DNA of 45,223 nt, taken from contig JAGVYR010000071.1 of NCBI GenBank assembly GCA_018303185.1, positions 1 to 45,223 of the forward strand, in the 5' to 3' direction. The DNA is from Candidatus Woesearchaeota archaeon (GTDB lineage Archaea; Nanobdellota; Nanobdellia; Woesearchaeales; GW2011-AR4). A model generated the notes under the pieces. It saw only the letters and a list, made by a program, of their open reading frames with translations. It ran no database searches and had not been told where the DNA came from. The position numbers and the translations under genes are program-made. This document shows, piece by piece, positions 17,115-40,900 of this stretch. Every line of letters begins with the position of its first letter. Position 1 is the first letter of the stretch.

Positions 17115-17276
17115 GCCATTATGACGGCTTCACAACTTCGGCGGTTTTTTATCTATCATTTTTTGGCACAATGAATTTTTTATTGAGAAAAAACCATCCC
17201 ATCCAAATCAGAACTCATAACCTGCCTCAGCTTCGAATAAAAGGCGGCCTTGCCTTAACCCGAATTGAATAATGGC
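17115..17276 (+). repeat. Family A paired-end intergenic element, copy A1
   Basis: Ends are an 8-bp inverted repeat GCCATTAT (17115-17122) / ATAATGGC (17269-17276). The inside has the family core GGCGGTTTTTT (17140-17150) and GAGAAAAAACC, which pair over 8 bp, then AATCAGAAC, AACCTGCCTCAGC and AAAAGGCGGCC. It fills the space between the MNT gene (+) and a GT2 gene (-). Compare A2 (22526), A3 (29830) and A4 (40633). Confidence 0.8.
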
Positions 17277-17284
17277 GGCAAAGC

Positions 17285-17980
17285 CTAATCAATGAACCTG
17301 TACTTCACAAGGTAATAAACAGCCTTTATCCCGTCCCGCCATGTTATCTTCTTTCCCTCGTCGAACTTCCTGCCGTGGAAGCTTATGGGGACTTCCTTTA
17401 TCCTGTGCCCTTTCTTCAGTATCTTGGCTGTGATCTCGGGCTCGAAATCAAACCTTCTTGCGCGAAGCTTCATTCCCTTTATCACATCCCTTTTAAATGC
17501 TTTATAGCAGGTCTCCATGTCAGTTATCTTGGAGCCGTAGAGGATATTTGTTACCAAAGTAAGGAAAACATTCCCAAGGTAGTGCAGCTTGTACATCTTG
17601 TCCAGGTTCTTTTTTATGACATCTATCCTTGAGCCATAGACAACGTCCGCTTTTCCGTCAATTATTGGCTTCAGCACGTTCCTGTAGTCTTCAGGGTCAT
17701 ACTCAAGGTCGGCATCCTGCACTATTATCAGATCTCCGGTAGCCTCCCCCAGCGCCGTCCTTATTGCAGCGCCCTTTCCTTTATTGATTTCATGATAGAA
17801 AACTCTTACCCTTTTGTCATTTATCTTCCCGAGAATTTCTCTTGTATTGTCCCCTGAGCAGTCATCCACTATAACTATCTCTTTCTCAATTCCGGGGAGG
17901 CTGACATCAAGCACCCTCCTGAGGATCTGCCTTATTGTCTTCTCCTCATTGTAAACGGGCATCAGTATTGAAAGCTTCAT
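17285..17980 (-). CDS. Glycosyltransferase family 2, DPM1-like
   Basis: A 231-residue cytosolic GT2 predicted to make a polyprenyl-phosphate sugar. Motifs in order: MKLSILMPVYNEEKTI, IVDDCSGDNTREIL, QDADLEYDPEDY (intact DxD-like donor motif), GSKITDMETCYKAF and RARRFDFEPEITAKIL. This matches the soluble dolichol-phosphate-mannose synthase class, with the C-terminal HGRKFDEGKKI. The start at 17980 is set by a TTTTTAAATAAG box (18003-18012, minus) ~25 nt upstream. It is transcribed alone, separated from the heptose genes by a palindrome-rich spacer. Confidence 0.92.
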   Translation of the reverse strand: MKLSILMPVYNEEKTIRQILRRVLDVSLPGIEKEIVIVDDCSGDNTREILGKINDKRVRVFYHEINKGKGAAIRTALGEATGDLIIVQDADLEYDPEDYRNVLKPIIDGKADVVYGSRIDVIKKNLDKMYKLHYLGNVFLTLVTNILYGSKITDMETCYKAFKRDVIKGMKLRARRFDFEPEITAKILKKGHRIKEVPISFHGRKFDEGKKITWRDGIKAVYYLVKYRFID

Positions 17981-18045
17981 AGGAAATGGCAAAAACGCGG
18001 CTTATTTAAAAATTTGCGCTATTTTAAGGTTGTCCGAAATCTCGC

Positions 18046-18226
18046 TTTACCTGAACGCGAGCCTGCTCGAACTTGCAGCAAAGGCGAGCGTTCTCGCAGG
18101 CAAATCTCGGGTTAGCAGCTTTCGCCCAATTAATGTTTAACATGATATATCGGTTATCCCCGTATGGGGCAACCCCCTGCCCTCATTTACTGGAAAAATA
18201 AAATAGGCTCACCTTTGCTGCTAACC
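18046..18226. repeat. Palindrome-rich spacer related to the hairpin-array repeat
   Basis: The spacer 17993-18249 holds no gene. GCCTGC..AAC (18061-18072) pairs with GTT..GCAGGC (18090-18101), 9 of 12 bp. GCAGCAAAGGCGAGC (18075-18089) is inverted at 18207-18221 with one G:U-type change, and GGTTAGCAGC (18110-18119) is inverted perfectly at 18217-18226. CTCGGGTTAGCA (18106-18117) is the exact reverse complement of 133-144 and 40375-40386 in the hairpin-array family. Confidence 0.65.
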
Positions 18227-18249
18227 TTCATTTCTGACAAAGAAATATT

Positions 18250-18732
18250 TTACCTATATGCTTCAATAATCCTGTTAATCAGCTTAGTCGTTGCATATCC
18301 TTCAATTTCCGGCACCAAGACAACCTTTCCGCCGTTCCTCTCAACCGCTTCCTTCTCTATTATCTGGCTCAGTTTATAGTCGCCGCCCTTCACATGCACA
18401 TCCGGCTTCAGCACTTCAAGGAAATCTACAGGAGTGTCCTCTTCAAAGACAAAAACGAAATCAACGCATTCCAGCGCAGCAAGCGCTTCTGCCCTGTCCA
18501 GCTCCTTGTTCAGCGGCCTCTTCTCGCCTTTCAGCCTTTTTGTTGAGGCATCTGAGTTTATGCCGACAATAAGCGCATCCCCCATGCCTTTTGCCTTCTC
18601 AAGATACTTTATGTGCCCTATATGCAGGATGTCAAAAACGCCGTTTGTAGTTACAACTTTCTTTTTTGCATTCTTTAGGTTGGAAACAATTCCCTCCAGT
18701 TCATTGAGTGTTTTTATTTTTTCCTTTGCCAT
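18250..18732 (-). CDS. hldC: Heptose-1-phosphate adenylyltransferase (RfaE domain II type)
   Basis: A 160-residue nucleotidyltransferase that would transfer AMP from ATP to D-glycero-D-manno-heptose-1-phosphate. TNGVFDILHIGHIKYLEKAK has the HxGH signature, and GINSDASTKRLKGEKRP and KPDVHVKGGDY are typical of RfaE-II/HldE C-terminal domains. It is a separate gene here rather than the kinase-adenylyltransferase fusion of Escherichia coli. It follows gmhB after 61 nt on the same strand and is last in the heptose gene set. Confidence 0.92.
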   Translation of the reverse strand: MAKEKIKTLNELEGIVSNLKNAKKKVVTTNGVFDILHIGHIKYLEKAKGMGDALIVGINSDASTKRLKGEKRPLNKELDRAEALAALECVDFVFVFEEDTPVDFLEVLKPDVHVKGGDYKLSQIIEKEAVERNGGKVVLVPEIEGYATTKLINRIIEAYR

Positions 18733-18793
18733 TTTATTTTTGCATCAATTCTTTTTTGAATTTTTATTATTGTGCATCTTTAGCCATTGAATA

Positions 18794-19345
18794 TTAAATG
18801 TTTTTCAAAATTGTTTCCGCAGCCTCAAAAATATCCTTGCAGACGAAATCGGGCTTTGCGCTCCTTTCCTTCAGTTCAGCACTATGCGTTTCTCCATGCC
18901 CCGTCAACAGATAAATTGACCTGCATCCTGCATTGTTGCCCATCTTAACGTCAGATGGATGGTCGCCTATGGCCCATGATTTCTTAAGGTCAATATTATA
19001 TTCCTTGGCAGCCTCCCTTGCGAACTTGGCGCTTGGCTTCCTGCATTCGCAGTCCTCATTAGGGGCATGTGGGCATATGTGTATTTTTTCTATCTTTATC
19101 CCGTTCTTTTTGAATTCCTTAAGCATTTTATTGTTGAACTTATGGACGTCCCCTATAGTGAAAAGTCCCCTCCCGACACCGGACTGGTTTGTTACAATAA
19201 AAAAAACATAATCTTTCTGCAAAAGCTTCAATGCTTCTATTGCCCCCTCAATCAATTTAAAATCTTCTGTCCTGTAGGTATACCCATCATCGTGGTTTAA
19301 AGTGCCGTCGCGGTCCAAAAAAATCGCTTTTTTCCTGTTAGCCAT
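18794..19345 (-). CDS. gmhB: D,D-heptose 1,7-bisphosphate phosphatase
   Basis: A 183-residue HAD-family histidinol-phosphatase-like enzyme. AIFLDRDGTLN carries the two nucleophile/acid aspartates, IVTNQSGVGRG is the second motif with substrate-loop residues, CPHAPNEDCECRKP is the GmhB zinc loop, and AIGDHPSDVKMG supplies the last Asp. It removes the 7-phosphate between kinase and adenylyltransferase steps of ADP-heptose synthesis. It overlaps hldA by 8 nt at start 19345 (MANRKK); MKMA at 19351 is an alternative. Confidence 0.92.
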   Translation of the reverse strand: MANRKKAIFLDRDGTLNHDDGYTYRTEDFKLIEGAIEALKLLQKDYVFFIVTNQSGVGRGLFTIGDVHKFNNKMLKEFKKNGIKIEKIHICPHAPNEDCECRKPSAKFAREAAKEYNIDLKKSWAIGDHPSDVKMGNNAGCRSIYLLTGHGETHSAELKERSAKPDFVCKDIFEAAETILKNI

Positions 19346-20321
19346 CTTCAATGCTCTTTTTCAGCTCATCAATGCTTGCAGTTGCAGTTCCTATCTTCGC
19401 CACTACAATCCCTGCTGCATAGTTTGCTATCATAGCCGCTTCCCTGAAAGAGGCTCCTGCGGCAAGCGCCAGAGTCAGCGTGGCAACTGAAGTGTCTCCC
19501 GCGCCTACAATGTCATAGACTTCCTTCGCAAATGTAGGGATATGCGTTACCTTCCCGTTTTTCTCAAAAAGCGACATTCCCTTCTCCCCTCTTGTAATCA
19601 GGACATTGCTTCCAAGATATTCCATGAGCTTTTTGCCCATGCCTTCAATTTCCTCATTGTTGTTGTTTTCCTCGAAAAAATTCGCCATCTGGTGCGCCTC
19701 TGTATGGTTTGGCGTTATCAGCGTGGCGCCCCTGTAAAAATCTCTGTGCTGCGGCTTTGGGTCAATCACGATTATCTTTCCTTTGCTGTTGCATAGTTCT
19801 ATAAGGTTCTCCATAAGGCCCTTTGTGACTGTGCCTTTTGCATAATCCGAGACAATGACTGCATCTATCTCATCTATTCTGCTCTCTATGAACGCAAATA
19901 TCTGGTCTTCAATATGCGCATCAAGATAGCCTTTCTTCTCATAGTCAAACCTGAGCAGCTGCTGGCTCCTTCCGATAACGCGCACTTTCTGGATTGTCGG
20001 TCTTTCCCTGTCTACAAACATCCCGCTTACATCAACTTTTTTCTTCTCAAGCTCCATCACAAGCTCGTCCTTTGCATTGTCATTGCCTACAATCCCCGTC
20101 ATTACAGCCCCTGCCCCGAGTGAAGCGATGTTATTGGAGACGTTTGCAGCCCCTCCCGGGACAAAGTTTTCCTTTGTAACGGCAACTACCTGCACAGGCG
20201 CTTCAGGGCTAATCCTGTTGACTTCCCCCCAGATGAACTTGTCGAGCATTATGTCCCCCAAAACCATGATTTTCTTTCCTCTGAATTTGCCCAGTATCTT
20301 CAGTAAGTTTTCATTTGCCAT
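19338..20321 (-). CDS. hldA: D-glycero-beta-D-manno-heptose-7-phosphate kinase (RfaE domain I type)
   Basis: A 327-residue PfkB/ribokinase-fold kinase. VLGDIMLDKFIWGEVNRISP and VPGGAANVSNNIASLGA are characteristic of RfaE-I/HldE N-terminal domains, and YDIVGAGDTSVATLTLALAA is the PfkB signature with the GAGD anion hole and catalytic Asp. It phosphorylates heptose-7-phosphate at C1. It overlaps hldD by 11 nt and gmhB at its 3' end, so the three are one operon. Confidence 0.94.
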   Translation of the reverse strand: MANENLLKILGKFRGKKIMVLGDIMLDKFIWGEVNRISPEAPVQVVAVTKENFVPGGAANVSNNIASLGAGAVMTGIVGNDNAKDELVMELEKKKVDVSGMFVDRERPTIQKVRVIGRSQQLLRFDYEKKGYLDAHIEDQIFAFIESRIDEIDAVIVSDYAKGTVTKGLMENLIELCNSKGKIIVIDPKPQHRDFYRGATLITPNHTEAHQMANFFEENNNNEEIEGMGKKLMEYLGSNVLITRGEKGMSLFEKNGKVTHIPTFAKEVYDIVGAGDTSVATLTLALAAGASFREAAMIANYAAGIVVAKIGTATASIDELKKSIEDG

Positions 20322-21207
20322 AAAGCTCCCCCATGTAGTCTTTTACCGCGTCCCTGAAATTCCATTTTGCCTTCCAGCCCATCATCTTTCCGCACTTTGA
20401 AGTATCAGCCTGCGTCCAGTTCTGGTAATTATTGCCGTAAGGATTGTCAAAATATTCAGGCTCAAGAGAAGTTCCAAGAGCCTCATTCAGCGCTTCAACA
20501 ACCTCATTGAATGCTGTTCCAATGCCAGTGCCTATATTGACAACGCAACTCTGATTCGCATACTGGGCATTTATAGTCGCATCAACCGCATCCTTCACAT
20601 AGATATGGTCCCTCTTTTGCTGCCCCATCTTAAATATTCTTGGGCGCTTTCCTGCCTTCATCTGCTGCGAAAGATGGTATATCATGGATGCAGGCCTTCC
20701 CTTGCCCTGCTCATGCGGCCCGAAAACATTGAAATATCTTAAACCGAAAATATGCATCTTATTAAACAACGATTCAGCAATCCTGTCCATCTCCAGTTTT
20801 GATTTTGCATATGCGCTCAGTATGTCTTTCTCCTGCTCTTCCCTTTGCGGAGCAGGCCCATTCCCGTACATTGATGCAGAAGATGCATAGATAAGCTTCG
20901 CATTGTTCTTCCGGGCAAGCCTTACCATATTTTTGAAACCACTTACATTTTTGCTGTAGGTCTCTTCATCATTCGGGTATCTTGGGTCTGTTATCGCAGC
21001 CTGATGGTGTATAATGCTTATTTTTTCCTTAAAATCAAAAGGCTGTGAAACATCCGCTTCAATGATTTTTCCCTTAAATCCCTTTAAATTCTCCCTGTGC
21101 CCTGTAAAGAAATTATCCATTACAATGACTTCATTCCCTTGCCTTTCTAGTTCCAGTGCAAGATTGCTTCCAATGAAGCCTGCCCCTCCCGTCACTAGGA
21201 TTTTCAT
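20311..21207 (-). CDS. hldD: ADP-heptose 6-epimerase-like NAD-dependent epimerase
   Basis: A 298-residue extended SDR. MKILVTGGAGFIGSNLAL is the NAD site, YASSASMYGNG and AYAKSKLEMD give the Ser and YxxxK triad, and RYFNVFGPHEQGKGRPAS with NYQNWTQADTS closely follow the HldD pattern (YFNVYGP.E.HKG.MAS; QADL). It would interconvert D- and L-glycero forms of ADP-manno-heptose. Context with hldA, gmhB and hldC supports this over other NDP-sugar epimerases, but the pathway could stop at another stereoisomer. Confidence 0.85.
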   Translation of the reverse strand: MKILVTGGAGFIGSNLALELERQGNEVIVMDNFFTGHRENLKGFKGKIIEADVSQPFDFKEKISIIHHQAAITDPRYPNDEETYSKNVSGFKNMVRLARKNNAKLIYASSASMYGNGPAPQREEQEKDILSAYAKSKLEMDRIAESLFNKMHIFGLRYFNVFGPHEQGKGRPASMIYHLSQQMKAGKRPRIFKMGQQKRDHIYVKDAVDATINAQYANQSCVVNIGTGIGTAFNEVVEALNEALGTSLEPEYFDNPYGNNYQNWTQADTSKCGKMMGWKAKWNFRDAVKDYMGELYGK

Positions 21208-21560
21208 TCTAATTCCAAAGCCTCCAAATCAGCTTTTCCGGAAACTTCATCCCTGTAAGAATCCGAATCCTCATGGTGCGTGGAAAATTCCACAATCTCA
21301 GAATCTTCAAGCCCAGTGAACCTGTGCTTCTGCCCCGGCTTTATGAGCATTGAATCTCCAGGATTCATGACGTGCTTTTTCATTCCTATTTCCAGCAGAA
21401 CCTTTCCTTTCAAGATGTAAAAAGTCTCGTCCTTCAGCTTGTGATGGTGCATCGAGCACCTGTAACCCTTGTTCAGGACAAGTATCTTGCCGCAGTAATC
21501 CCTATTCACGATCCATACCTCCTTTCCCCACACTTTATCAACTTCCTTGCGTTTTGTCAT
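21204..21560 (-). CDS. Cupin, phosphomannose-isomerase-like
   Basis: A 118-residue single-domain cupin. Both cupin motifs are intact: GYRCSMHHHKLKDETFYILK (two metal His plus Glu) and PGDSMLIKPGQKHRF (third metal His). Similar domains form the C-terminus of type II phosphomannose isomerases. It is first in the heptose operon and overlaps hldD by 4 nt. As no GmhA-type isomerase is seen here, a sugar-phosphate isomerase role in heptose synthesis is an inference. Start 21560 follows a TATA box at 21585-21594 (minus). Confidence 0.85.
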   Translation of the reverse strand: MTKRKEVDKVWGKEVWIVNRDYCGKILVLNKGYRCSMHHHKLKDETFYILKGKVLLEIGMKKHVMNPGDSMLIKPGQKHRFTGLEDSEIVEFSTHHEDSDSYRDEVSGKADLEALELE

Positions 21561-21562
21561 AG

Positions 21563-21594
21563 AGTATGAACTATTCATACCTAGACTATATAAG
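21563..21594 (-). promoter_or_regulatory. TATA box and operator for the cupin-heptose operon
   Basis: Minus-strand GCTTATATAG (TATA, about 21585-21594) is followed at 21563-21579 by the inverted repeat GTATGAA-cta-TTCATAC, placed between the TATA box and the ATG at 21560. The same AGTATGAACT half recurs in the opposite promoter at 21650-21659. Confidence 0.65.
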
Positions 21595-21639
21595 CTTTTC
21601 GGTAGAAATATTGCCTGAAGCATATACTTTAGCATAGAA

Positions 21640-21669
21640 AAGTATATAAAGTATGAACTTTCAATACTT
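21640..21669 (+). promoter_or_regulatory. TATA box and operator for the EamA transporter
   Basis: AAGTATATAAAG (about 21640-21651) is the TATA box, ~30 nt before ATG 21679. AGTATGAACT (21650-21659) followed by AATACT gives an imperfect palindrome at the expected transcription start, matching the site on the heptose-operon side. Confidence 0.6.
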
Positions 21670-21678
21670 TGTAATACT

Positions 21679-22563
21679 ATGAAAGAATCCCTTAAAGGAG
21701 CACTGTACATTGTATCTGCAATGCTTATCTTTGCTTTCTTCGGGATATTCCTCAGATTTCTTAACCTTCCTTCACTGGTTGTCGTGTTTTTTTACTTCAT
21801 GCTGACAGGAGTTTTTATGTTCATTTTTTTCTTTTTTAAAAATAAGTCAATAATAATTGTAAAATCCCATTGGCACCTCATCATCCTCCTTGCTTTATTT
21901 AACATAGGCAACAATTTCTTTTACTTCCAGTCTTTTTCAAGAACAACTATAAGCAACGCCGTGGTCACGCATTATACCGCGCCAATATTCGTTGCAATTC
22001 TTGCGCCTTTCCTTCTGAAAGAGAAGATGGACAGGGCCACATTATACGCTCTTGGAATCTCAATCATTGGATTGCTGTTTATAACTTACAATGACCTGTC
22101 TTTTGGCTCAAGTCATATAGCTGGAATTGCATACGGCATTGCCTCCGGATTGATGTACGGGCTCGTCATAATAATCGTAAAGCACCTTTCGGGAAAGCTC
22201 AGCTCTTTTTCCATCATAACCTATATGTGCCTTCTTGGAGGGTTTATCCTGTCGCCTTTCGCTTTTGCGGCTGATGTGAATTATGGCCCAAGGCTCATCT
22301 TCATGCTTGCCCTCTTTGCAGTATTGTTCGGCGTAATTGCAACCTCATTTCATTTTGCAGGCATAAAGCGCGTGAAATCACAGCACGCAGGAATCCTGGC
22401 ATACGCAGAGCTTGTGGCAGCACCTATATACGGGCTCATATTTTTCAATGAAATCCCGGCATTAAGCACGATAATCGGAGGCATCATGATATTCATTGCA
22501 GGTTACCTGATAATGAAGGACCCAGTCAACTTAAGGCGCCATTTTGCTCGGCGGTTTTTTTGA
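21679..22563 (+). CDS. EamA/DMT-family membrane transporter
   Basis: A 294-residue protein with ten predicted membrane helices in two EamA repeats; each half ends with the family-type pattern (THYTAPIFVAILAPFLLKEK and AYAELVAAPIYGLIFFNEIP). DMT transporters export or exchange metabolites, including nucleotide sugars. It is divergent from the cupin-heptose operon and shares an operator motif with it, suggesting joint control. The last ten or so codons (from ~22531) lie inside repeat element A2, so the basic C-terminal tail is encoded by the element. Confidence 0.88.
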   Translation: MKESLKGALYIVSAMLIFAFFGIFLRFLNLPSLVVVFFYFMLTGVFMFIFFFFKNKSIIIVKSHWHLIILLALFNIGNNFFYFQSFSRTTISNAVVTHYTAPIFVAILAPFLLKEKMDRATLYALGISIIGLLFITYNDLSFGSSHIAGIAYGIASGLMYGLVIIIVKHLSGKLSSFSIITYMCLLGGFILSPFAFAADVNYGPRLIFMLALFAVLFGVIATSFHFAGIKRVKSQHAGILAYAELVAAPIYGLIFFNEIPALSTIIGGIMIFIAGYLIMKDPVNLRRHFARRFF

Positions 22564-22678
22564 TATTTTATTTTTTTTGAAATATCGGAGTTAATTTACT
22601 GAGAAAAAACCGTCCCTTGCCTTAATCAGAACAGGTAACCTGCCTCGCAAAAAACAATGAGGCGGCCTTAAGCTGGCC
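22526..22678 (+). repeat. Family A paired-end intergenic element, copy A2
   Basis: The left end TCAACTTAAGGCGCC (22526-22540) pairs with GGCGGCCTTAAGCTGG at the right end (22661-22676). Inside, CGGTTTTTTT (22550-22559) pairs with AAAAAACCG, a 9-bp stem with an AT-rich loop; then AATCAGAACAGGTAACC and GCCTC-loop-GAGGC. The stop codon of the EamA gene is within the element. Confidence 0.85.
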
Positions 22679-22699
22679 TTGCTTACCAAGGAGGGAAAA

Positions 22700-23449
22700 A
22701 TGACAAAGCCAAAAATAGCCATAAGTCTTGACAAGCCCCTGCTGGACTTGATAGACAGCAAGGTAGATGGAAATGTAATCAGGTCAAGGTCGCAGGCGAT
22801 GGAATATTTCCTGAGAAAAGGCCTGAGGGAGCAGTCAGTCAACACTGCAGTCATCTTGCTGTCAGGAGAGCATCAAAAGACTTCATTGAAGCAGCTAAAA
22901 GGGAAGACACTGATACGTAACCAGCTTGATTTTTTTAAAAATAATAGTATCTCCAATGTTTTTATTGTAACACAGCATACTAAGGATATAAAATCCCTGC
23001 TGAACGAAATTGCCGATTCCTCCCTGAATGTGGAAGTGATTGAAAAAGAGGCGAAGGGAAACGCAAAAGCCCTTGAATCAATAAGGGAAAAGATAAAGGG
23101 CAATTTCATCGTAATGTCCGGAGACACATACAACGATTTTGACCTCATAAAGATGGCATCAAAGCACCTTGAAATGGACAAGATGGCAACAATGGGATTA
23201 ATGACGAGGGAAAAGACTGCAGGATACGGCACCGCAATCCTTGACGGGGACTTCATAATAGACTTTGAGGAAAAGCCACGGCATTCTTCAACGCAGATTG
23301 TCAATGCAGGAATCTATATCTTCAAGCCGGAAATATTTGAGCTGTTTGATAATGTCAACAGCCTTGAGAAGGGCCTTTTCCCGAAGCTGGCAAGGATGAA
23401 ACAGCTCATAGGATTCTTTACTTACGGGGAATATTTGCATATGGAATAA
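22700..23449 (+). CDS. Ribbon-helix-helix domain fused to a degenerate sugar nucleotidyltransferase
   Basis: A 249-residue protein. Residues 1-46 (KIAISLDKPLLDLIDSKV, then RSRSQAMEYFLRKGLREQ) form a CopG-like ribbon-helix-helix DNA-binding domain. Residues 47-249 have the fold of glucose-1-phosphate-type nucleotidyltransferases: AVILLSG at the start, VMSGDTYNDFDL and NAGIYIFKPEIFELF. The nucleotide-binding GxGTRxxPxTxxxPK signature is replaced by SGEHQKTSLKQLKGK, so catalysis may be lost. A GGAGGG ribosome-binding site is 7-8 nt before ATG 22700. A nucleotide-sugar-sensing regulator is my inference; an active but divergent transferase is the alternative. Confidence 0.8.
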   Translation: MTKPKIAISLDKPLLDLIDSKVDGNVIRSRSQAMEYFLRKGLREQSVNTAVILLSGEHQKTSLKQLKGKTLIRNQLDFFKNNSISNVFIVTQHTKDIKSLLNEIADSSLNVEVIEKEAKGNAKALESIREKIKGNFIVMSGDTYNDFDLIKMASKHLEMDKMATMGLMTREKTAGYGTAILDGDFIIDFEEKPRHSSTQIVNAGIYIFKPEIFELFDNVNSLEKGLFPKLARMKQLIGFFTYGEYLHME

Positions 23450-23483
23450 AAAGATTTTTAAGTTAGGGCACCATTTTGGATTT

Positions 23484-23630
23484 ATGGAAACTGCCAATGT
23501 CTCTTTGATGCCCACTCAAGCCCTAGATAATGCTAAAAACATAGCCGAAAAAATAAGGTTAATTGGCCGCAACTATCTGGAGGGCCGAAGAGAGGGCATG
23601 CATTTTAGCGATTTAATCCGAGAAGAGTGA
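23484..23630 (+). CDS. Small protein (48 aa), unknown
   Basis: An ATG-initiated 48-residue frame beginning METANVSLMPTQALDNAKNI and ending FSDLIREE. A TATA-like GATTTTTAAG at 23453-23462 is ~26 nt upstream, the usual spacing for leaderless genes here. It is predicted largely helical and amphipathic. It is followed 7 nt later by another small frame, forming a two-gene mini-operon. No family recognised. Confidence 0.5.
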   Translation: METANVSLMPTQALDNAKNIAEKIRLIGRNYLEGRREGMHFSDLIREE

Positions 23631-23637
23631 GATTTCA

Positions 23638-23808
23638 GTGCATCCAGCCGTAAAGTCCGGTTACAGGAGAGCTAAGGGCTACCTTGGAACCGTAAAGAAA
23701 CCTGATGCAGGCACCCTTATTCAGTATGCTTATCATGCATACGTTGCTGCGCGAATTATGGAAGAATGTTATACTCCAAAAACAGAAGAGCCTTTAATTA
23801 AATCCTAA
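23638..23808 (+). CDS. Small protein (56 aa), unknown, GTG start
   Basis: A 56-residue frame starting at GTG 23638 (HPAVKSGYRRAKGYLGTVKK...) with a basic N-terminus and a helix containing YAYHAYVAARIMEECY. It follows the 48-residue frame after 7 nt and its stop overlaps the 3' end of the opposite-strand GT9 gene by 4 nt. Codon content looks protein-like. Function unknown; a small regulatory or toxin-antitoxin-like pair with the preceding frame is conceivable. Confidence 0.45.
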   Translation: MHPAVKSGYRRAKGYLGTVKKPDAGTLIQYAYHAYVAARIMEECYTPKTEEPLIKS

Positions 23809-24932: not shown

Positions 24933-24941
24933 ATTGGCACC

Positions 24942-25277
24942 TCATTTTTTCCTGTCTATAGCTATTTTCCTGACAACGTCCTCAAGCTTTCTCTGGTTTT
25001 TCCGCACGATTGTGTAGGTATAAAATGAAACGAATATCAGGAAAAGGAAGCCTGCGATTATGAAAAAGTCAAGCGCTCTTCCTATGCTCAGTGTTGAAAG
25101 TATGGGATCGAGTATCTGAGGCATTAAAGTAACTGCAAGGAATGCAGCCCAAAAAGCCAGCCAGAACCCGTATTCTTTGGCAGTAAATTCTTTCCTCTTG
25201 TGCTGCAGAAAAGTGTAGTATATCATGAAAAACCCGAAAATCATCCCAAGAATCTGCACTCCGAGTATTTTTGCCAT
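24942..25277 (-). CDS. DUF2304-family small membrane protein
   Basis: A 111-residue protein with three membrane helices (~5-23, ~37-55 and ~68-90), the last followed by a basic cytosolic helix (TIVRKNQRKLEDVVRKI). This fits DUF2304, commonly placed next to GT2 genes in archaeal and bacterial surface-polysaccharide clusters. The gaps to neighbours are 6 and 9 nt. It may anchor or assist the GT2 enzyme; that is inference from context. Confidence 0.85.
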   Translation of the reverse strand: MAKILGVQILGMIFGFFMIYYTFLQHKRKEFTAKEYGFWLAFWAAFLAVTLMPQILDPILSTLSIGRALDFFIIAGFLFLIFVSFYTYTIVRKNQRKLEDVVRKIAIDRKK

Positions 25278-25283
25278 TTTCCC

Positions 25284-29829: not shown

Positions 29830-29980
29830 GCCAAGTCAAGCCCGCCTTTTGTTTGAGGCTGAGGCAGGTCACGCGTTCTGATTTCAAAAGGAACGGTTTT
29901 TCAATAATAATAAAATCCAATATTTCCATCAAATAAAACAAATAAAAAACCGCCGAAGCCTCAGGCGGCTTAGACTTGGC
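29830..29980 (-). repeat. Family A paired-end intergenic element, copy A3
   Basis: Ends GCCAAGTCAAGCCCGCCT (29830-29847) and AGGCGGCTTAGACTTGGC (29963-29980) are an 18-bp near-perfect inverted repeat. Read on the minus strand the element begins at the base after the stop codon of the reductase gene, then has GCCGCC-loop-GGCGGTTTTTT, which looks like an intrinsic-terminator hairpin, and the family core TTGAAAAACCG, AATCAGAAC and GACCTGCCTCAGC. Confidence 0.87.
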
Positions 29981-31072
29981 TCAAAGCGCAAACCTCACAT
30001 ACTTCAGGAACCTCGGCTCCTTCATAATCAGATTCAGCACCAAAGGTATCGGCGTGTCCCTGTCATATTTGTCAAGAACATTTTTTACTTTCTCGGAATC
30101 CATAAGCCCCAGAAGGTAGTCATAATCGCTGTCAGTAAACCTGTTCAGCATCTTCCTTATCTTAAGGTGCAGCCTTAATTCTTTGCCGGACTGGAGCATG
30201 AATGCCTTTTGGTAGTCTTTTTTCCGCACTATGCAGTCAGCTAATGTATACCCTGCCTTTATAGACGGGATTATCCCGCCGCCCGTAGTTGCCTTGACAT
30301 GCGATGCGGCATCTCCGATAAGGTAGACATTGCCTTTTTGGATAACCTGCTTGGGATTGTGTATCGGAAAAATTCCGGATTCCCAGCACAGCACTTCCTC
30401 TTTTCCTGTCCTTTTTTTAATGAGCCTGTAAAACAGCTCCTTGGCATTCGCCCTTGCCCCCAGCCCAAGCCTCGCAATTTTTTCAGATTCAGGCACAGCC
30501 CACCCGAAAAATTCCGGAAAGTCCTTATTCGAGAAGTAAGTTTCAAACTCGTTCATGTCCATGCTCAATCTTACTTTTGCCTGCATTCCTATATAGAAAT
30601 CAAACTTCCTCCCAATGCCTGCTGCCTTTCCCACAGCTGAAGAGGGCCCGTCAGCGCCCACAATGTCGCCGGCAGCAATTTCTTTTGTTTTATTATTTTT
30701 TTTATCCTTGATTTTTATCTTATTTTTTCCATCGAATCCAAAGAATTGGTGGTTGAGAAAAAGCTTTGCCCCTGCATCCACAGCCCGCTCAGCCATAAAT
30801 CTGTCAAACAAATTGCGCCACATCACGATTTCGCTGACACGGGCGTCAATCCTTTTGTTTTTGCTTACAACAACAACCCTGCCGCATTTATTGGCAATCA
30901 CTTTCTGAGGCAGCTTTACAAACCTATCAATGGAATGGGTGATGATTCCTGTACACTGGACCGGACTCCCGACTTCACTGTGCTCTTCAAACACAGCAAC
31001 TTCCTTGCCCGCTTTTGCAAGAAGGTAGGCAAGATTCGTTCCCGCGGGCCCTGCACCTATTATTGCTATCAT
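29981..31072 (-). CDS. Geranylgeranyl reductase-family FAD oxidoreductase
   Basis: A 363-residue flavoprotein that would saturate isoprenoid chains of archaeal lipids or polyprenol carriers. MIAIIGAGPAGTNLAYLLAK is the FAD-binding Rossmann motif, SPVQCTGIITHSID the Cys-containing GGR signature, DIVGADGPSSAVGKAAGI and VYLIGDAASHVKATTGGGII complete the PHBH-fold FAD site. It is divergent from the lipoprotein gene at 31190; a TATAAAAT-type box (31085-31102, minus) lies just upstream. Dolichol-phosphate reduction would tie it to AglB, but phospholipid reduction is equally possible. Confidence 0.9.
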   Translation of the reverse strand: MIAIIGAGPAGTNLAYLLAKAGKEVAVFEEHSEVGSPVQCTGIITHSIDRFVKLPQKVIANKCGRVVVVSKNKRIDARVSEIVMWRNLFDRFMAERAVDAGAKLFLNHQFFGFDGKNKIKIKDKKNNKTKEIAAGDIVGADGPSSAVGKAAGIGRKFDFYIGMQAKVRLSMDMNEFETYFSNKDFPEFFGWAVPESEKIARLGLGARANAKELFYRLIKKRTGKEEVLCWESGIFPIHNPKQVIQKGNVYLIGDAASHVKATTGGGIIPSIKAGYTLADCIVRKKDYQKAFMLQSGKELRLHLKIRKMLNRFTDSDYDYLLGLMDSEKVKNVLDKYDRDTPIPLVLNLIMKEPRFLKYVRFAL

Positions 31073-32748: not shown

Positions 32749-32796
32749 ATTATAGTACAGCCCCATTATAGTACAGCCCCATTATAGTACAGCCCC
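32749..32796. repeat. Perfect 16-bp tandem repeat, three units
   Basis: ATTATAGTACAGCCCC occurs three times head to tail. It lies ~50 bp upstream of the TATA box of the secreted-protein gene, so it may be an upstream control element or only a slippage product. Confidence 0.9.
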
Positions 32797-32842
32797 TCCG
32801 AACCAATACGTTATCATTCCAGAATGGTTACAATTTAGAAAG

Positions 32843-32850
32843 GTTTAAAT
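32843..32850 (+). promoter_or_regulatory. TATA box for the secreted unknown protein
   Basis: TTTAAATA at 32844-32851 within GGTTTAAATATTC. Transcription would start near 32870, just where the in-frame signal-peptide-like codons begin. Confidence 0.55.
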
Positions 32851-32984
32851 ATTCTAGCGGTTTTGCAGTAAAAAGTTGTGGGGTTCTAGGTACATACTTA
32901 GTAGCAGGCCCTTCTGTTCCGATTGCGCAGGCGCAGCCAAAGCCTGCCCAAGTAAAGCCTAAGAAAGGTCAAAATGTCCATTAT

Positions 32985-34088: not shown

Positions 34089-34100
34089 TAGGTGAATGAT

Positions 34101-36677
34101 ATGAAAAGCGACATGACAAAAAAAGCCCTGATTGCAATCGTCATACTTGTAATGATATTTTCTATACTGTCTGTCTCAGTCCTTGCAGAAGGGGGAGATG
34201 GCGACGGTGACGGAGATGGAGATGGCGACGGTGACGGAGATGGCGACGGTGACGGAGATGGCGACGGTGACGGAGGAATAATAATAGCAAACACAGCACC
34301 GGTGCTTAATGCAATAGGCAGCAAGTCAATAAGCGAAAACCAGCTGCTCCAGTTCTCAGTATCAGCATCTGATCCGGAAGGAAATCCTTTAACATTCTCA
34401 GCAGGCAATCTCCCATCCGGAGCAAGCTTCTCAGGCACAACCTTTTCATGGACCCCATCATTTTCACAGTCAGGCACATACTCAGTGGCTTTCTCTGTAA
34501 CAGACGGGGAATTCACAGACTCTGAAACAATCACAATAACGGTTAACGATGCAAACAGGGCGCCTTCAATAACATCCAGCCCGGTAACAGCAGGGCGTGA
34601 AGGATATGCTTACAGCTATGATGTTAATGCTGCCGACCCTGACGGCGATTCAATTTCATTTTCATTGGCAGCTGCTCCAAGCGGAATGTCAATCAACTCA
34701 GCTTCAGGATTAATCAGCTGGACACCATCCTCAGCGCAGGTTGGCAATAACGCAGTCACAGTACAGGCTTCTGACGGAAAGGGCGGCGTCGCTTCACAGT
34801 CATTTACAGTCAGCGTATCAGTAAACAACGCTCCTGTAGTTGACATAACCCATCCTGACAACACTCACAATGACTTTGTAGCAGGATTCCCTGTAAGGAT
34901 AATTGCAAGGGCAACAGATGCAGACAATGACCCGCTATCATACACACTGACTTATGGCGACGGCCAGTCAGCTGCAGGAAATGTTGTTTCAAATACAATA
35001 AGCCAGATACACACTTACGCTGCTGCAGGCACTTACACGATAACAGCAACTGCTTCCGACGGAGCAAAAACAGGCTCAGACGCGCAGTCAGTGTTAATAT
35101 GGCCTTACGGCTTCAACATAACGAACCTTAACTCTTACAACGACTCGAATTTCGTCCAGCAGGACAATACATTCTACAGGAACGAGCCAATGTATATTAA
35201 ATTCAACGTTATACAGAAGGACAAGGGCTTCATGGTTGCTAACAACATAAACCATGTATACATATTCAACAGGGATAAGCCCTCAAATATATATGACCTC
35301 TCAGCTTTCAGCGGAAATGCAAATGGCGTAAATGTAGTGAACGGCCAGCCTTCAGTTCCGGATGGAAGATACTATTATAACATCCCAAGCCTTCCTTTGT
35401 CTGACGACATACTTGGATGGAACATAGTGTTTGTCTTCAGCCGCAACCAGACACACGCAGGGCAGGCAGAGTTGCAGATTCAGGTATTGAACAACCCTCT
35501 CCAATTGGCTCAGTTCCCTGATGTCACGCTCAATCAAATCTCAGGAAATATGATATATGCAGACGTGGCCCTTGATCCATTGGTCTTTGATGTAGAGACG
35601 CCAGACAGCGAAATAACCTGGTCATTCTCAGGCATGGTCAATGTGGCTGTGCAGATACTTGCAGGGCGAATAGCAAGATTTTCAGCAGCCTTGGGATTCC
35701 AAGGCAATGAGCAGTTGACCGCAACTGCTAATGACAATGACGGCAGCTCAGCCTCTTCAATATTCAGGGTATTCAGCGGAAATCCGATAATCACATTGAC
35801 AGCTCCAAACGGCGGCGAGTCCATATTCGGCACAACTTTAATAACATGGGCAGCATCCGACCCTCAGGGAGATGCTTTGACAATAGCCCTTGAATACAGC
35901 GCAAATGCAGGGCTTTCATGGTCCACAATAGCTACAGGCCTTGCCAACACAGGCTCTTACAGCTGGAACACGCTTGGACTGCCTCAGGGCACCCAATACC
36001 TTGTAAGAGTTACTGCAACGGACTCAAACGGCCTTTCCAGCAATGACGTTTCAAACGCAGTCTTCACAATACTTTCAGGCCCGGATTCAGTCCCGGCAGT
36101 AAAGATAAAGGCGGATAAGACAATGGGAGAGCCTCCACTGACAGTTTCATTCGACGCTGAAGTGACAGGAGGAAACGCCCCATTCACTTATGCGTGGGAT
36201 TTCAACGGCGACAATGTAGCGGATTCAACGGCAAAATCACCCTCAGCGCTTTTCACAGAAGAGGACAAATTCACGGTAAAAGTGACCGTAACTGATTTCG
36301 ACGGAGACACCGCAACAGATACAATAGTCATTGATACCAGCGACCAGCCTTCTATTAACCCAAGGGAAAAGCTCCATATAGGGGAGATAAGGTTCCCAGA
36401 AATAGTTTATCCGGGAGAGAGCGTTGAAGTGCTTGTTAACGTCGAGAACAAAAATTCGCTTGATACCAGCGAGCTTTCAATCAAGGCAGTAGTTCCCGAT
36501 CTTTCATTGAGGATGAAGGAAGGCAGCGAGCAGATTGGCGAGGGAGAAAGCCTGTCAAGAAGGCTTATCCTTGAAATTCCAAAAGGCACAAAGCCGGGAA
36601 CCTATGACCTTCTCGTCGAAGTCAATGACCACGACACAAACAGGAGGCGCTGGAGGCAGTTCAGGGTAATCGAATAA
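34101..36677 (+). CDS. Surface adhesin-like protein with Gly-Asp repeat, cadherin/PKD-type domains
   Basis: An 858-residue secreted protein. A signal helix (KKALIAIVILVMIFSILSVS, cleaved near VLAEGG) is followed by 13 consecutive Gly-Asp pairs, then two He_PIG/cadherin-like Ig domains (NTAPVLNAIGSKSISENQLL and NRAPSITSSPVTA), a PKD-like domain (YGDGQSAAGN), a beta-rich middle, an Ig domain with LTAPNGGESIFGTTLITW, a canonical PKD domain (FTYAWDFNGDNVADSTAKS) and a final Ig-like domain (GEIRFPEIVYPGESVEVLVN). No C-terminal anchor is evident, so it may bind S-layer or glycan. An AGGTGA ribosome-binding site stands 5-8 nt before ATG 34101; GTG 34092 is an alternative. Confidence 0.88.
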   Translation: MKSDMTKKALIAIVILVMIFSILSVSVLAEGGDGDGDGDGDGDGDGDGDGDGDGDGDGGIIIANTAPVLNAIGSKSISENQLLQFSVSASDPEGNPLTFSAGNLPSGASFSGTTFSWTPSFSQSGTYSVAFSVTDGEFTDSETITITVNDANRAPSITSSPVTAGREGYAYSYDVNAADPDGDSISFSLAAAPSGMSINSASGLISWTPSSAQVGNNAVTVQASDGKGGVASQSFTVSVSVNNAPVVDITHPDNTHNDFVAGFPVRIIARATDADNDPLSYTLTYGDGQSAAGNVVSNTISQIHTYAAAGTYTITATASDGAKTGSDAQSVLIWPYGFNITNLNSYNDSNFVQQDNTFYRNEPMYIKFNVIQKDKGFMVANNINHVYIFNRDKPSNIYDLSAFSGNANGVNVVNGQPSVPDGRYYYNIPSLPLSDDILGWNIVFVFSRNQTHAGQAELQIQVLNNPLQLAQFPDVTLNQISGNMIYADVALDPLVFDVETPDSEITWSFSGMVNVAVQILAGRIARFSAALGFQGNEQLTATANDNDGSSASSIFRVFSGNPIITLTAPNGGESIFGTTLITWAASDPQGDALTIALEYSANAGLSWSTIATGLANTGSYSWNTLGLPQGTQYLVRVTATDSNGLSSNDVSNAVFTILSGPDSVPAVKIKADKTMGEPPLTVSFDAEVTGGNAPFTYAWDFNGDNVADSTAKSPSALFTEEDKFTVKVTVTDFDGDTATDTIVIDTSDQPSINPREKLHIGEIRFPEIVYPGESVEVLVNVENKNSLDTSELSIKAVVPDLSLRMKEGSEQIGEGESLSRRLILEIPKGTKPGTYDLLVEVNDHDTNRRRWRQFRVIE
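34194..34271 (+). repeat. 18-bp tandem coding repeat for (Gly-Asp)13
   Basis: GGAGATGGCGACGGTGAC is repeated four times, with one unit lengthened by GGAGAT. It encodes an uninterrupted Gly-Asp tract directly after the signal peptide. Confidence 0.92.
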
Positions 36678-36786
36678 AAGTATATTTCCGATTACAATAA
36701 TAAACCAAAACGTTTATATATAAGTTATTATTACTCGACAATGATTAATATATGTTTTCACTGGCATATGCTAACGAAATCAAAAA

Positions 36787-36796
36787 GTTTAAATAC
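36787..36796 (+). promoter_or_regulatory. TATA box for the S-layer-like protein gene
   Basis: GTTTAAATAC at 36787-36796 precedes ATG 36863 by ~70 nt, giving a leader of ~40 nt that ends in GCGGGGGTAAG, an anti-Shine-Dalgarno match 8-12 nt before the start. A second TATA-like CGTTTATATATAAG (36711-36724) may be an additional promoter. Confidence 0.6.
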
Positions 36797-36862
36797 AAGG
36801 TATATTTAAGCTTTTAATACTCATGTATTGGTAAAAAACAAAAACATGCGGGGGTAAGTCAA

Positions 36863-38125
36863 ATGAAGATGTTTAAAATTTTAAGTGTTTTGGCTTTGCT
36901 TTTGGTCAGCGTACTGGCTATGAGCAATGTCGCAAGTGCCGTATCGGCAACAATCGACGAGGTTAAGCTTGACGGCGATACTCTGTCTCCTTCTTCAAAC
37001 AACGCCGTTCTTGACGTAGACAGGGATCAGGAGCTTGAAGTAAGGGTAAGGTTCACAGCAACAGCTAACCAGGACAATGTCCAGGTTGAAGCTGCTATAA
37101 GGGGCTACGACCACGGCGATCTTATTGAAGATATAACTGACGCTTTTGATGTAAAGACAGGAAACAGCTACATCAAGAAGCTTACACTTCCTTTGAGAGA
37201 AAGGATGGATCAGGGTAAGTATCTTTTGAGGGTCAGGATTGAAGACAGGGCAGGTGCGACTGTAACACAGACTTACACCCTTGACGTGGACACAGAAAGG
37301 CACAATCTTCAGGTTTACGACGTCGTTCTTTCACCGGGAGAGACCGTGAATGCAGGCAGGGCGTTGCTCGCTGCAGTAAGGGTCAGGAACAGGGGCGAGA
37401 AGGACGAGAAGAACGTTAAGGTAACAGTTTCCATACCTGAGCTTGGCGTTTCCGCTTCCGATTTCATAGATGAGATAGAGAAGAGCGAAGATGATGATGA
37501 TGAGACAACTTCAGAGGAGCTTTACTTAAGGATTCCTGACGATGCTGAAACAGGCGATTATACACTTGTAACAGAGCTACAGTATGATCTTGGCGATGAG
37601 TACGAGACACAGGAGCAGGTTATAAGGGTAGTTGGCTCTGAAAAGGCAATGGAAGAGAAGAAGGAAAAGACAATACTTACAGTAGCTGCTGACGCTCAGA
37701 GTTTGCAGGCAGGAGGCGCAGAAGTTGCCTACCCGATAACACTGACAAACGCTGGCTCAACCTCAAAGGTCTACACAGTCACAGCTGATGGCGCATCATG
37801 GGCAACCATGAGAGTAAGCCCGGGCAACGTAGTTGTTGTAGGTGCCGGAGAGAGCAAGGCAGTGACAGTATATGTCGCAGCAGCCAAGAATGCGCCCGCA
37901 GGCGAGCAGAGCTTCACAGTAACAATAATGAGTGATGACAAGGTATTGAAGCAGCTTGCATTGAAGGCAAACGTCTCAGCTGAAAGCGCAGCTTCCAAGC
38001 TTAAGCGCGGCCTAGAAGTCGGCCTTGTTGTCTTGGTTGTTTTGCTTGTAATCGTCGGCCTGATAATCGGCTTCAACAAGCTGAAGGGCGGCGAGGAAGG
38101 CGGCGACGAGGAAACTTATTATTAA
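36863..38125 (+). CDS. Putative S-layer-like surface protein with C-terminal membrane anchor
   Basis: A 420-residue protein. Signal peptide FKILSVLALLLVSVLAMSNV ending near ASA; three beta-sandwich domains (~30-145, ~145-275, ~280-380), the second with NVKVTVSIPELGVSASDF typical of CARDB-like domains, the third NEW3-like (AYPITLTNAGSTSKVYTVTA); a C-terminal helix VGLVVLVVLLVIVGLIIGFN and a short acidic cytosolic tail. The strong promoter with a ribosome-binding site and codon pattern rich in GG/GC suggest high expression. Proteins of this layout are commonly called putative S-layer proteins in DPANN genomes; that label is context-based. Confidence 0.8.
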   Translation: MKMFKILSVLALLLVSVLAMSNVASAVSATIDEVKLDGDTLSPSSNNAVLDVDRDQELEVRVRFTATANQDNVQVEAAIRGYDHGDLIEDITDAFDVKTGNSYIKKLTLPLRERMDQGKYLLRVRIEDRAGATVTQTYTLDVDTERHNLQVYDVVLSPGETVNAGRALLAAVRVRNRGEKDEKNVKVTVSIPELGVSASDFIDEIEKSEDDDDETTSEELYLRIPDDAETGDYTLVTELQYDLGDEYETQEQVIRVVGSEKAMEEKKEKTILTVAADAQSLQAGGAEVAYPITLTNAGSTSKVYTVTADGASWATMRVSPGNVVVVGAGESKAVTVYVAAAKNAPAGEQSFTVTIMSDDKVLKQLALKANVSAESAASKLKRGLEVGLVVLVVLLVIVGLIIGFNKLKGGEEGGDEETYY

Positions 38126-38165
38126 GTTTCTTTTTTTTCTCTTTTTTCTTTTATAATTTTTCTTG
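38126..38165 (+). terminator. T-rich terminator after the S-layer-like gene
   Basis: The stop codon is followed by TTTCTTTTTTTTCTC and TTTTTTCTTTTATAATTTTTC, a series of U-runs as expected for archaeal termination. Confidence 0.6.
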
Positions 38166-38202
38166 AATTTTCTGTTAATCCCGCTAGGGGGGATATCGAA
38201 AA

Positions 38203-40113
38203 ATGAAAGCAGCCAAGCTGAGTTTAATGGTTTTGATTTTGGCTCTTGCTGTAAGCTTGGCAGGTGCCCAGTCAGATTTTAAGCTCTCTTCAGGCACTGA
38301 AGTAAGCCTTTGCCCATGCTCAAACCAGGAGTACAATGTCCTTCTCCAGAACCTAAATCCTGTTCAGCAGTCATACGACATAAGAACTAGCGGAGCAGCA
38401 GCCGGTTGGGTTACAATAGAGCCCGCTGTCCTGACTCTTGAGGCAAATACAGCAGCTTACATTAAAGTCACAGTAAACAGCCCTTGCAACATTGAAGGCC
38501 CTTCAGATTTGAATATCTTTGCAGTAGCCTCTACAGGCGAATACCAATATCTTACACAAAGCCTGGATTTCCTTGCATGCTATGATTATTCATTGTCTTT
38601 GGGAAAGCCTCAAGAAATAACAGGAGCCGCTGTTGAATTTGAAGAAAGTCCGGGCACTTCATTTGACGTATGCGAAGGTTCCTCAATAATTATCCCAATC
38701 CTTGTTGAAAACAGGGAAAATTTTGGAAATTCCTACACTTCTTCATTAAGCGAAAGCAAGGGCATGGCTTCATTAAGCCCGGAAAAATTTGACCTTGCAG
38801 CCAATTCAAGGGGGCTTATGGTTTTGAAGGCTGATGCACTTTCAAGAGGAAACTATCCTATGTCGGTAAGGCTTGTGTCTGGGCTTGGGCAGGTTATAAG
38901 GCAGTCAAACCTCACTCTGAATGTCCAGAATTGCTACGACTTTTCTCTTGAAACGGACAAGAGCAGCCTTGAGATGTGCGGCGGCGACAAAGAGCAGGTC
39001 TCTGTGGCAGTAAAAAACAATGGGGACATTGCCCAGAATATTGTTTTGAGCGCGCAAAACGCTGATTTCGTGTCATTTGGCAACATTTCAAGCTTCACAA
39101 TTGCAGCAAGTTCGGAGAGAAAAATTAATCTTGCTGTCTCCCCAAAGCCTGAAGATTCGGGCCAGTTTAAGGCTGTCCTTCTTGCGTCGAATGAAAACAT
39201 AAACTCGTCAGCGCCGTTAAGCATTCAGGTAACGGGCAGGAATGCCTGCTACAGCTCAGAAGTTGATTTTTACAGCTCCTTGGCTAATCATTATACTCAT
39301 GAAGTTTATCCCGTAACCATAAAAAACAACGGAATAGCAAAATCCGGTTACAATCTGAGCGTACAGGGCCCTGAATGGGTTTCAGTCTCTCCCGGCAGCA
39401 TTGAAGTTAACATGGGCAAAGAGGGCATATTCAACCTTCTGATAAGCCCTCCCGAAGATGCAGAGCAGAAAACCTATGAAATCACGATAAATGCAAAAAC
39501 CCACGGAGAGACATACTCAAAATCATTTTCCCTTGAGCTTAAGCAGGAAAACCCCATCCTGAAGCGCATAAAATCGGCGCTGAATTACTACCAGTACTAT
39601 ATATACGCAGCCGTTGCCATGCTGTTCCTAATAGCTGTGCTGTGGATGCCCGCCAAGCGCAGAATTCAGAAGGCAAAAGAGCAGTATGCGCTATACAAGG
39701 AAAGAGCGGAAAGGCAAAGGCAGCGCGAAGAAGAGAGAAGGGCAAGGGAAGAGCAGAGAAGGATTGAAAGGGAAGAAGCCCGAAGAAAAAGGGAAGAGGA
39801 AAAAAGGAAGAAGGCAGAGCAGAAAGCAAAAGAGCAGGAAAGAAAAAAAGCAAGGCTCGAGAAAAAAGCCGAGAAAAGGCTGAAGAAATTCTCGGCTAAA
39901 GACCACTTCATAGCCGCCGGAATACTGGTGCTTATTGCAGCCTTCGCCCTGCTGTTTTCATACGGGAAAGGCATCGTAAGCTACGCAAAGAATTTCATTC
40001 TCCTCTACCAGCTGTACTTTGTAGCGGGCATTGTCATACTGGCATTGCTCCTTATAGTGATAAGGTTCGGAAAGCCGTTCCTTGATTTTCTTATGGAAGA
40101 CGACAGGAAATAA
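38203..40113 (+). CDS. Secreted/membrane protein with Ig-like ectodomain and long charged helix between membrane spans
   Basis: A 636-residue protein. A signal peptide (LMVLILALAVSLAGAQ) leads to a Cys-containing ectodomain of about four beta-sandwich (NEW3-like) units; each ends with patterns such as FLACYDYSL, NVQNCYDFSL and GRNACYSSEV, giving regularly spaced Cys. A membrane helix (~460-478) is followed by ~80 residues made almost only of Lys, Arg, Glu and Gln, a predicted single alpha-helix or coiled coil, and two more membrane helices at the end. AGGGGGG is 9-15 nt before ATG 38203. It may link the surface layer to the cytosol; function unknown. Confidence 0.82.
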   Translation: MKAAKLSLMVLILALAVSLAGAQSDFKLSSGTEVSLCPCSNQEYNVLLQNLNPVQQSYDIRTSGAAAGWVTIEPAVLTLEANTAAYIKVTVNSPCNIEGPSDLNIFAVASTGEYQYLTQSLDFLACYDYSLSLGKPQEITGAAVEFEESPGTSFDVCEGSSIIIPILVENRENFGNSYTSSLSESKGMASLSPEKFDLAANSRGLMVLKADALSRGNYPMSVRLVSGLGQVIRQSNLTLNVQNCYDFSLETDKSSLEMCGGDKEQVSVAVKNNGDIAQNIVLSAQNADFVSFGNISSFTIAASSERKINLAVSPKPEDSGQFKAVLLASNENINSSAPLSIQVTGRNACYSSEVDFYSSLANHYTHEVYPVTIKNNGIAKSGYNLSVQGPEWVSVSPGSIEVNMGKEGIFNLLISPPEDAEQKTYEITINAKTHGETYSKSFSLELKQENPILKRIKSALNYYQYYIYAAVAMLFLIAVLWMPAKRRIQKAKEQYALYKERAERQRQREEERRAREEQRRIEREEARRKREEEKRKKAEQKAKEQERKKARLEKKAEKRLKKFSAKDHFIAAGILVLIAAFALLFSYGKGIVSYAKNFILLYQLYFVAGIVILALLLIVIRFGKPFLDFLMEDDRK

Positions 40114-40115
40114 GG

Positions 40116-40411
40116 GTTTGTTATAAGGGGAGGTTAGCATCATTATTGCGAGGCTCTTTTATAACAGCATCCAATGAGTTGAGGGGGATGCCCCACAAGG
40201 TTTTAGGAAAACCTTGGCCAAAACAGGTATGGCTTGCAGCCATGCGCCGCAGCTAACTTGTGAGGTGACAAGCTGCGGCATGGAGCTGCAAGCTCCATCT
40301 TACGCGTCAACCGAGCATAACCGGTTGCGGGGCTTCAACGATACTTTTAAGACAATGGCAATAGCCGAGCCTGATGCTAACCCGAGCGCCAGCGAGCCTT
40401 ATAACAAAGCC
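40116..40411. repeat. Hairpin-array interspersed repeat, copy 2 (complete, with terminal inverted repeats)
   Basis: Begins 3 nt after a stop codon. TTTGTTATAAGG (40117-40128) and GGTTAGCATCA (40132-40142) are perfectly inverted at 40397-40408 and 40372-40382. Inside are hairpins with 3-nt loops: GGGG-atg-CCCC (40184-40194), AAGGTTTT-agg-AAAACCTT (40197-40215), ATGGCT-tgc-AGCCAT (40229-40243), then GCCGCAGCT/AGCTGCGGC (40246-40279) and ATGGAGCT-gca-AGCTCCAT (40280-40298). Bases 40243-40386 match window copy 1 (1-144). No transposase or other gene inside. Confidence 0.87.
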
Positions 40412-40459
40412 GAAATAGGTATATTTTTTAAAGAGATTTTATTTTCTTACTGCATTTAT

Positions 40460-40577
40460 GGGGATGTAGTATAACCTGGCCAGAATGCGGGCCTCCAGCC
40501 ATTGGAGCGATGAGCCGGAAGGCGATGATTTCAATGAAAGAAAGCCTGAGATCGGGGTTCAAATCCCTGCATCCCCA
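40460..40577 (+). tRNA. tRNA-Trp (CCA) with 44-nt intron at 37/38
   Basis: Exon 1 is 40460-40498, intron 40499-40542, exon 2 40543-40577. The acceptor stem GGGGATG/CATCCCC is perfect; A14, G18, G19 and A21 are in place; the anticodon stem CGGGC pairs with GCCTG across the intron; anticodon CCA is at 40495-40497; the T arm is CGGGG-TTCAAAT-CCCTG; discriminator A, no encoded CCA. An intron helix CATTG/CAATG and 7-nt strands on both sides give the spacing of a bulge-helix-bulge site, with cuts at AG/C and AA/A; the central 4-bp helix is weak (two pairs). A T run follows the gene. Confidence 0.92.
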
Positions 40578-40632
40578 CTTATTTTTTGCCATTTTTAATA
40601 AAATCATAATAAATTAAAACCATAGCCCGATA

Positions 40633-40900
40633 GGCAAGGTTAACTTAAGGGGGCGCCTCCTTGTTTCTGCCGAGGCAGCGCAATTTTTCTGGGCGCAAAA
40701 GGCACGGTTTTTCTTCAATAATATTTTTCTTCAATAATATAATAGGGGCTGTTAATTTTTAATATCAATTAGCTCCTATTATGCTCGAAAGACCTAACAA
40801 ATGCTATTAAAAGCTTAGGTCTTTCGTTATAGCATGCAATTGTTTCAAAAAAATAAAAAATCAAAAAACCGCTGAGGCAGATGGCGTCCTTAAGTTGGCC
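40633..40900 (-). repeat. Family A paired-end intergenic element, copy A4, with internal insertion
   Basis: Ends GGCAAGGTTAACTTAAGG (40633-40650) and CCTTAAGTTGGCC (40888-40900) are inverted. On the minus strand the order is GCCTCAGCGGTTTTTTG, a long loop, AGAAAAACCG, then TGCGCTGCCTCGGC and GGAGGCGCC. The loop is longer than in A1-A3 because it holds a second structure: GAAAGACCTAA...TTAGGTCTTTC (11 bp) nested beside AATAGGGGCT/AGCTCCTATT, and a 16-bp direct duplication TTTTTCTTCAATAATA. Confidence 0.83.

Follow-up and report, generated by a model that had tools for sequence, protein, structure and literature searches.

The repeats shared by four loci of the window, the whole 45,223-nucleotide stretch analysed here, are very probably members of a family, at least 59 strong, of palindromic, non-autonomous transposable elements (MITEs) in its uncultured Woesearchaeota host, a reading that rests on target-site duplications and on larger intergenic gaps where the element is present. 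The MITE family is new and has long palindromic ends, and the archaeal group to which its host belongs is poorly sampled. The first-pass annotation had offered a new 3'-UTR RNA or a structured mobile element, the latter of which proved the better option. It had also held that pairing kept between differing sequences argues against a transposon, which the duplications and enlarged gaps contradict, even though the family does covary. A plain MITE had been envisaged as the outcome if duplications occurred without covariation; duplications were found, but covariation is present as well.

A single contig of a Woesearchaeota MAG (G000; 1.62 Mb, 76 contigs, completeness 91%) makes up the window, whose STT3 protein has homologues chiefly in Woesearchaeota MAGs, with a top identity of 54-56%. 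A BLAST search with copy 1 retrieved 38 places in this genome, and a covariance model built from 20 copies (R1) gave 59 matches, spread over many contigs. A second carrier, G001, from the same family as the host, harboured 11 copies according to R1 and 12 according to its own model (R2), which was built from the G001 copies only; R2 in turn recovered 44 copies of the window genome, down to an E-value of 1.8e-19, and re-found window copies 1-3. The proposed covariance-model search thus yielded further copies both in the genome itself and in a relative, and a chance family, as would have followed from a lack of other copies, is ruled out by the BLAST places, the R1 matches and the R2 recovery of copies 1-3. 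The remaining genomes among the 353 of the order gave no match under the stricter filters applied there, and the STT3 loci of relatives held zero copies (best E-value 0.76). Plasmid and phage records gave no match to the element, and a second pattern searched against viral contigs returned zero matches. A viral carrier was rejected, as the sole viral-contig match (L204) was a chance one, lying within the genes of a T4-like-looking phage contig and having no model match.

Intact copies are about 150 bp in length, gene-less, as had been claimed, and consist of a single long imperfect hairpin. Their ends comprise a weakly conserved outermost hexamer followed by a stem of the GYCAASTTAAGG type. 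Inward of the outer stem, which spans roughly 10-16 bp, lie a GCC:GGC step, a variable middle stem, CGG:GCC, CGG.TTTTTT:AAAAACCG and an AT-rich loop, and on the right side there are a conserved block without pairing (TTCC-N8-CAGAAC-N2-GTAACCT) and a bulge of 1-4 nt. Outer and inner stems pair across the element as terminal inverted repeats, and T-runs occur on both strands. The shared core described in the first-pass annotation was seen, with the left CGG..TTTTTT, its partner AAAAACCG and the block CAGAAC / AACCTGCCTC / AGGCGG. The outer arms differ by subfamily, forming the pairs GGTTAAGGC/GCCTTAACC, GTCAACTTAAGG/CCTTAAGTTGAC, GGTTAGGATAAGG/CCTTATCCTAACC and GCCAAGCCAAGC/GCTTGGCTTGGC, as do the middle stems (TTTTGC/GCAAAA, AGAGGCT/AGCCTC, CTGCC/GGCAG, TTGGAGT/ACTCCAA and GCATCT/AGATGC).

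The stems covary. In an alignment of 74 matches, which was fitted to the model and whose counts are biased towards structure, 89.7% of cells were paired and two-sided changes were found in 18 of the 23 pairs, with a covariation score of 0.369 versus 0.150 for shuffled and at most 0.098 for slid alignments. When the outer 10-mers were aligned without the model, 13 left words were found among 25 copies, all of them pre-selected for no more than two mismatches in eight positions; the arms were identical in 16 of these copies and differed at 1-2 positions in the others. The outer stem was paired in 668 of 687 ungapped cells (~97%), in copies chosen for a good stem.

A second small hairpin repeat, GAGATTTGCCTGCGAGAACGCTTCGCCTTTGCTGCAAGTTCGAGCAGGCTCGCGTTCAAATCTC, replaces the tip of the left-arm middle stem in about 10 copies (L009, L019, L029-L032, L068, L168), and a related hairpin likewise replaces the middle-stem tip in the G001 copy L082. 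Other hairpin repeats, in or beside copies (the loop of the window copy at 40639-40899, and L010, L021/L050 and L166), are probably further small mobile elements; they include GAAAGACCTAA..TTAGGTCTTTC with TAATAGGGGCTGTTAATTTTTAATATCAATTAGCCCCTATTATA, and ACGAGCGGACTTTAATATCC..

Within the window, all four copies were found where the first-pass annotation had placed them. Copy 1 (17115..17276, plus strand; limits as first annotated; R1 score 105.3 bits) is decayed or chimeric, in that its right arm terminates in CCTTAACC (type A), its left outer arm is absent and its outer-stem score is 2, versus 14-34 for intact copies. Because the left counterpart of the family outer stem is missing and the right arm is of the CCTTAACC type, the outer GCCATTAT/ATAATGGC pair of this copy is not homologous to the outer stems of the others. 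The assertion that the outermost ends pair in every copy with different sequences holds for differing yet pairing arms across the family, but not for copy 1, whose pair is not the family stem. Directly before this copy, at 16320-17089, lie adjacent small genes resembling, by eye, a HEPN/MNT nucleotidyltransferase pair. Copy 2 (palindrome 22525..22677, plus strand; 145.7 bits) is an intact type B element with the ends GTCAACTTAAGG...CCTTAAGCTGGC, and its flanks, ATGAAGGA and ACCAAGGA, are identical at 6 of 8 positions and represent a probable target duplication. The gene of an EamA-family transporter (21679-22563, plus strand; ORF list and Pfam EamA) has its 3' end (22525..22563, plus strand) read from this copy, with 12 element-encoded codons (VNLRRHFARRFF) and a stop.

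Copy 3 (palindrome 29830..29980, minus strand; 143 bits) is intact, with the ends GCCAAGTCTAAGC...GCTTGACTTGGC, and directly adjoins the minus-strand gene 29981-31072 at its stop codon; no target duplication was recognisable in its flanks. Copy 4 (palindrome 40639..40899, minus strand; type B; left part 34.5 bits, right part 15.5 bits), with the ends GCCAACTTAAGG...CCTTAAGTTAAC, measures 261 bp because its loop holds another hairpin-rich sequence of ~100 bp; its flanks, TATCAGGG and TATCGGGC, are identical at 6 of 8 positions at the family offsets. The statement that three copies come directly after a stop codon holds loosely, in that copy 3 abuts one, but copy 1 lies 25 nt downstream and the EamA gene enters copy 2. 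A tRNA gene with a probable intron is located at 40460-40577 (Rfam match over 118 bp; ARAGORN made no call).

Left and right flanks were compared in 25 copies with scorable ends, which revealed direct repeats of ~8-9 bp, the identity being highest some 5-6 nt beyond the left end and 6 nt beyond the right one. The best fit, at a length of 9 bp (left offset 5, right offset 6), gave an identity of 0.49 versus 0.27 in mismatched pairs (z 6.8; 0.49-0.50 and z 6.6-6.8 over 8-9 bp), and at a length of 10 bp none of 500 permutations reached the observed excess. With offsets of 6 and 6 and a length of 8 bp, 7-8 of 8 positions matched in 5 of the 25 copies, versus none of 600 mismatched pairs. Recognisable duplications have been kept by only some copies, including L071, with TTAGAAAT on either side, L072, with the direct repeat CCGATTCGA, and window copy 4, with TATCAGGG/TATCGGGC.

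Orthologous gaps are shorter in most relatives that do not carry the element, the relatives compared being of other genera. The gap between a pilin-like gene and the L34e gene measures 425 bp in G000 and 289 bp in G001, both with an element, and five of the eight relatives that lack one have 99-155 bp; since the other three element-less relatives also have wide gaps (221, 291 and 383 bp), gap size alone falls short of proof. The DHS-panB gap is 192 and 203 bp with the element and 49 bp in the element-less G006, though wider in two others. Two G001 copies share these gaps with G000 copies, in the same orientation for DHS-panB and in opposite orientation for pilin-L34e. As each shared-gap copy resembles the subfamily of its own genome, independent insertion is the preferred explanation, and a conserved function at orthologous sites was rejected. 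Copies were also found nested, inserted within each other's AT-rich loop to give composites of the order L-L-R-R, which share one orientation with one exception.

Other prokaryotic MITEs (Correia, ERIC and Sulfolobus SM) are likewise shorter than 500 bp, gene-less, AT-rich and intergenic, with inverted ends, direct repeats that fade with age, nested copies and stem-loop potential (PMC10969869). Unlike these, the present family has long arms that vary by subfamily yet remain paired, resides in a Woesearchaeota host and has no parent IS found. A target duplication of 8-9 bp is shared with IS256/Mutator-, IS6- and IS1-type transposons, but their transposases were not detected in either carrier genome. 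To the eye, some ends of these types (GATAAAGTC, GGCACTG and GCCAACTTA) resemble those of the element. Searches of G000 and G001 for the IS6 (PF13610), IS1595 (PF12762), IS1 (PF03400) and IS256 (PF00872) transposases revealed none, and no autonomous partner emerged among the five transposase families tested.

We infer that a transposase acting in trans, probably of the DDE type, would recognise the paired ends, and that insertion would duplicate ~8-9 bp of the target. Each subfamily would derive from a progenitor with two matching arms. That the arms remain matched afterwards may reflect a requirement for matched ends in any further move, or hairpin-mediated template switching that copies one arm onto the other. 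Transcription may also end, incidentally, at the T-runs present on both strands. Counting against a MITE is the weakly conserved outermost hexamer, which is unusual for a transposase-bound end. One doubtful proposal is that the ends are recognised mainly by shape, through the one-sided-bulge hairpin and asymmetric inner block, and moved by a candidate archaeal transposase with an 8-9 bp duplication; if true, shape recognition would explain end sequences that drift whilst pairing is kept.

Two other origins were weighed against a MITE. It is very improbable that the family is of the REPIN or IS200-IS605 type, moved as single-stranded DNA by a hairpin-reading Y1 transposase. The Y1 single-strand mechanism is not known to make a target duplication, and duplications were found here; two Y1 transposase (Y1_Tnp) genes are indeed present in G000, but no copy lies within their loci. 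The near-uniform orientation of the composites would agree with such an element, as would a mobile hairpin with compensatory changes on both sides, a feature shared with REPINs (PMC3116915). However, REPINs have two conserved REP ends, a Y1 (RAYT) transposase and no target duplication (PMC3116915), whereas the present copies show duplications and no linked transposase.

It is also unlikely that the family is a structured RNA or mRNA 3'-UTR element, maintained through selection for RNA folding (perhaps serving termination or mRNA stability), its mobility lying in the past. The strong covariation, the ~97% pairing of outer-stem cells despite largely decayed target duplications, the T-runs on both strands and the many copies that lie no more than 25 nt from the stop of a gene, in most cases one read into the right end, would all suit such an element. 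Nonetheless, the host's own copies, which are intergenic, have gene contexts that are mixed (-- 19, +- 14, ++ 12, -+ 12, with ORFs called by a simple rule) and include divergent gaps with no upstream gene. Among the 41 copies whose outer stem is clear, neither strand displayed a wobble excess (12 G-U versus 18 A-C, p 0.36), in a count that omitted two columns whose pairs are fixed or doubtful (U-G in 25 and 35 cases); a looser outer-stem count leaned in the opposite direction, with 10 G-U and 23 A-C. Rfam has no matching family, the sole match of Rfam 15 at gathering score over the window being the intron-containing tRNA, and nearly all relatives are without the element. Gene context and wobble counts together speak against the transcribed 3'-UTR RNA for which the annotation had seen a candidate, which was rejected on these counts, and when the subfamilies of a palindromic transposon covary, this alone is no demonstration of RNA function. 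A promoter of the element's own, upstream of it, was set aside too; the TATA-like motifs that many flanks show on visual inspection appear to drive the neighbouring genes.

For a MITE family, the condition of the arms calls for explanation. Target duplications average about half identity whilst arms are ~97% paired, and the outer 10-mers agree at 9.5 of 10 positions in copies with poor duplications and at 9.7 of 10 in those with good ones. Neutral decay alone would lower both arm pairing and duplication identity, and since the arms remain paired whilst the duplications have largely decayed, something preserves or re-makes the palindrome; misplaced ends and small flank indels may explain part of the contrast. 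Selection on folding, a need for matched ends in transposition, or template-switch correction could each be the cause. The last of these, in which template switching at replication converts one arm to the complement of the other in otherwise dead MITE copies, would add to the MITE reading and is entertained only tentatively. It accords with the contrast between arms and duplications and with compensated changes that show no G-U excess, as is expected of a DNA-level process, and template-switch mutation at quasipalindromes has been documented in E. coli (PMC7202029). Repeated correction should, however, erase two features that are conserved, namely the right arm's one-sided bulge of 1-4 nt and the asymmetric block CAGAAC..GTAACC, and the words common to subfamilies indicate that part of the covariation is inheritance from progenitors.

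Among the papers searched in full text, none combined MITE, archaea and DPANN, and with the present family the DPANN archaea gain a well-sampled MITE family. It also offers a caution for RNA discovery, in that a palindromic mobile element can itself produce strong covariation among the repeats of one genome, and such covariation does not suffice for calling a structured RNA. Well-paired arms beside decayed target duplications provide a handle on how palindromes are maintained in genomes.
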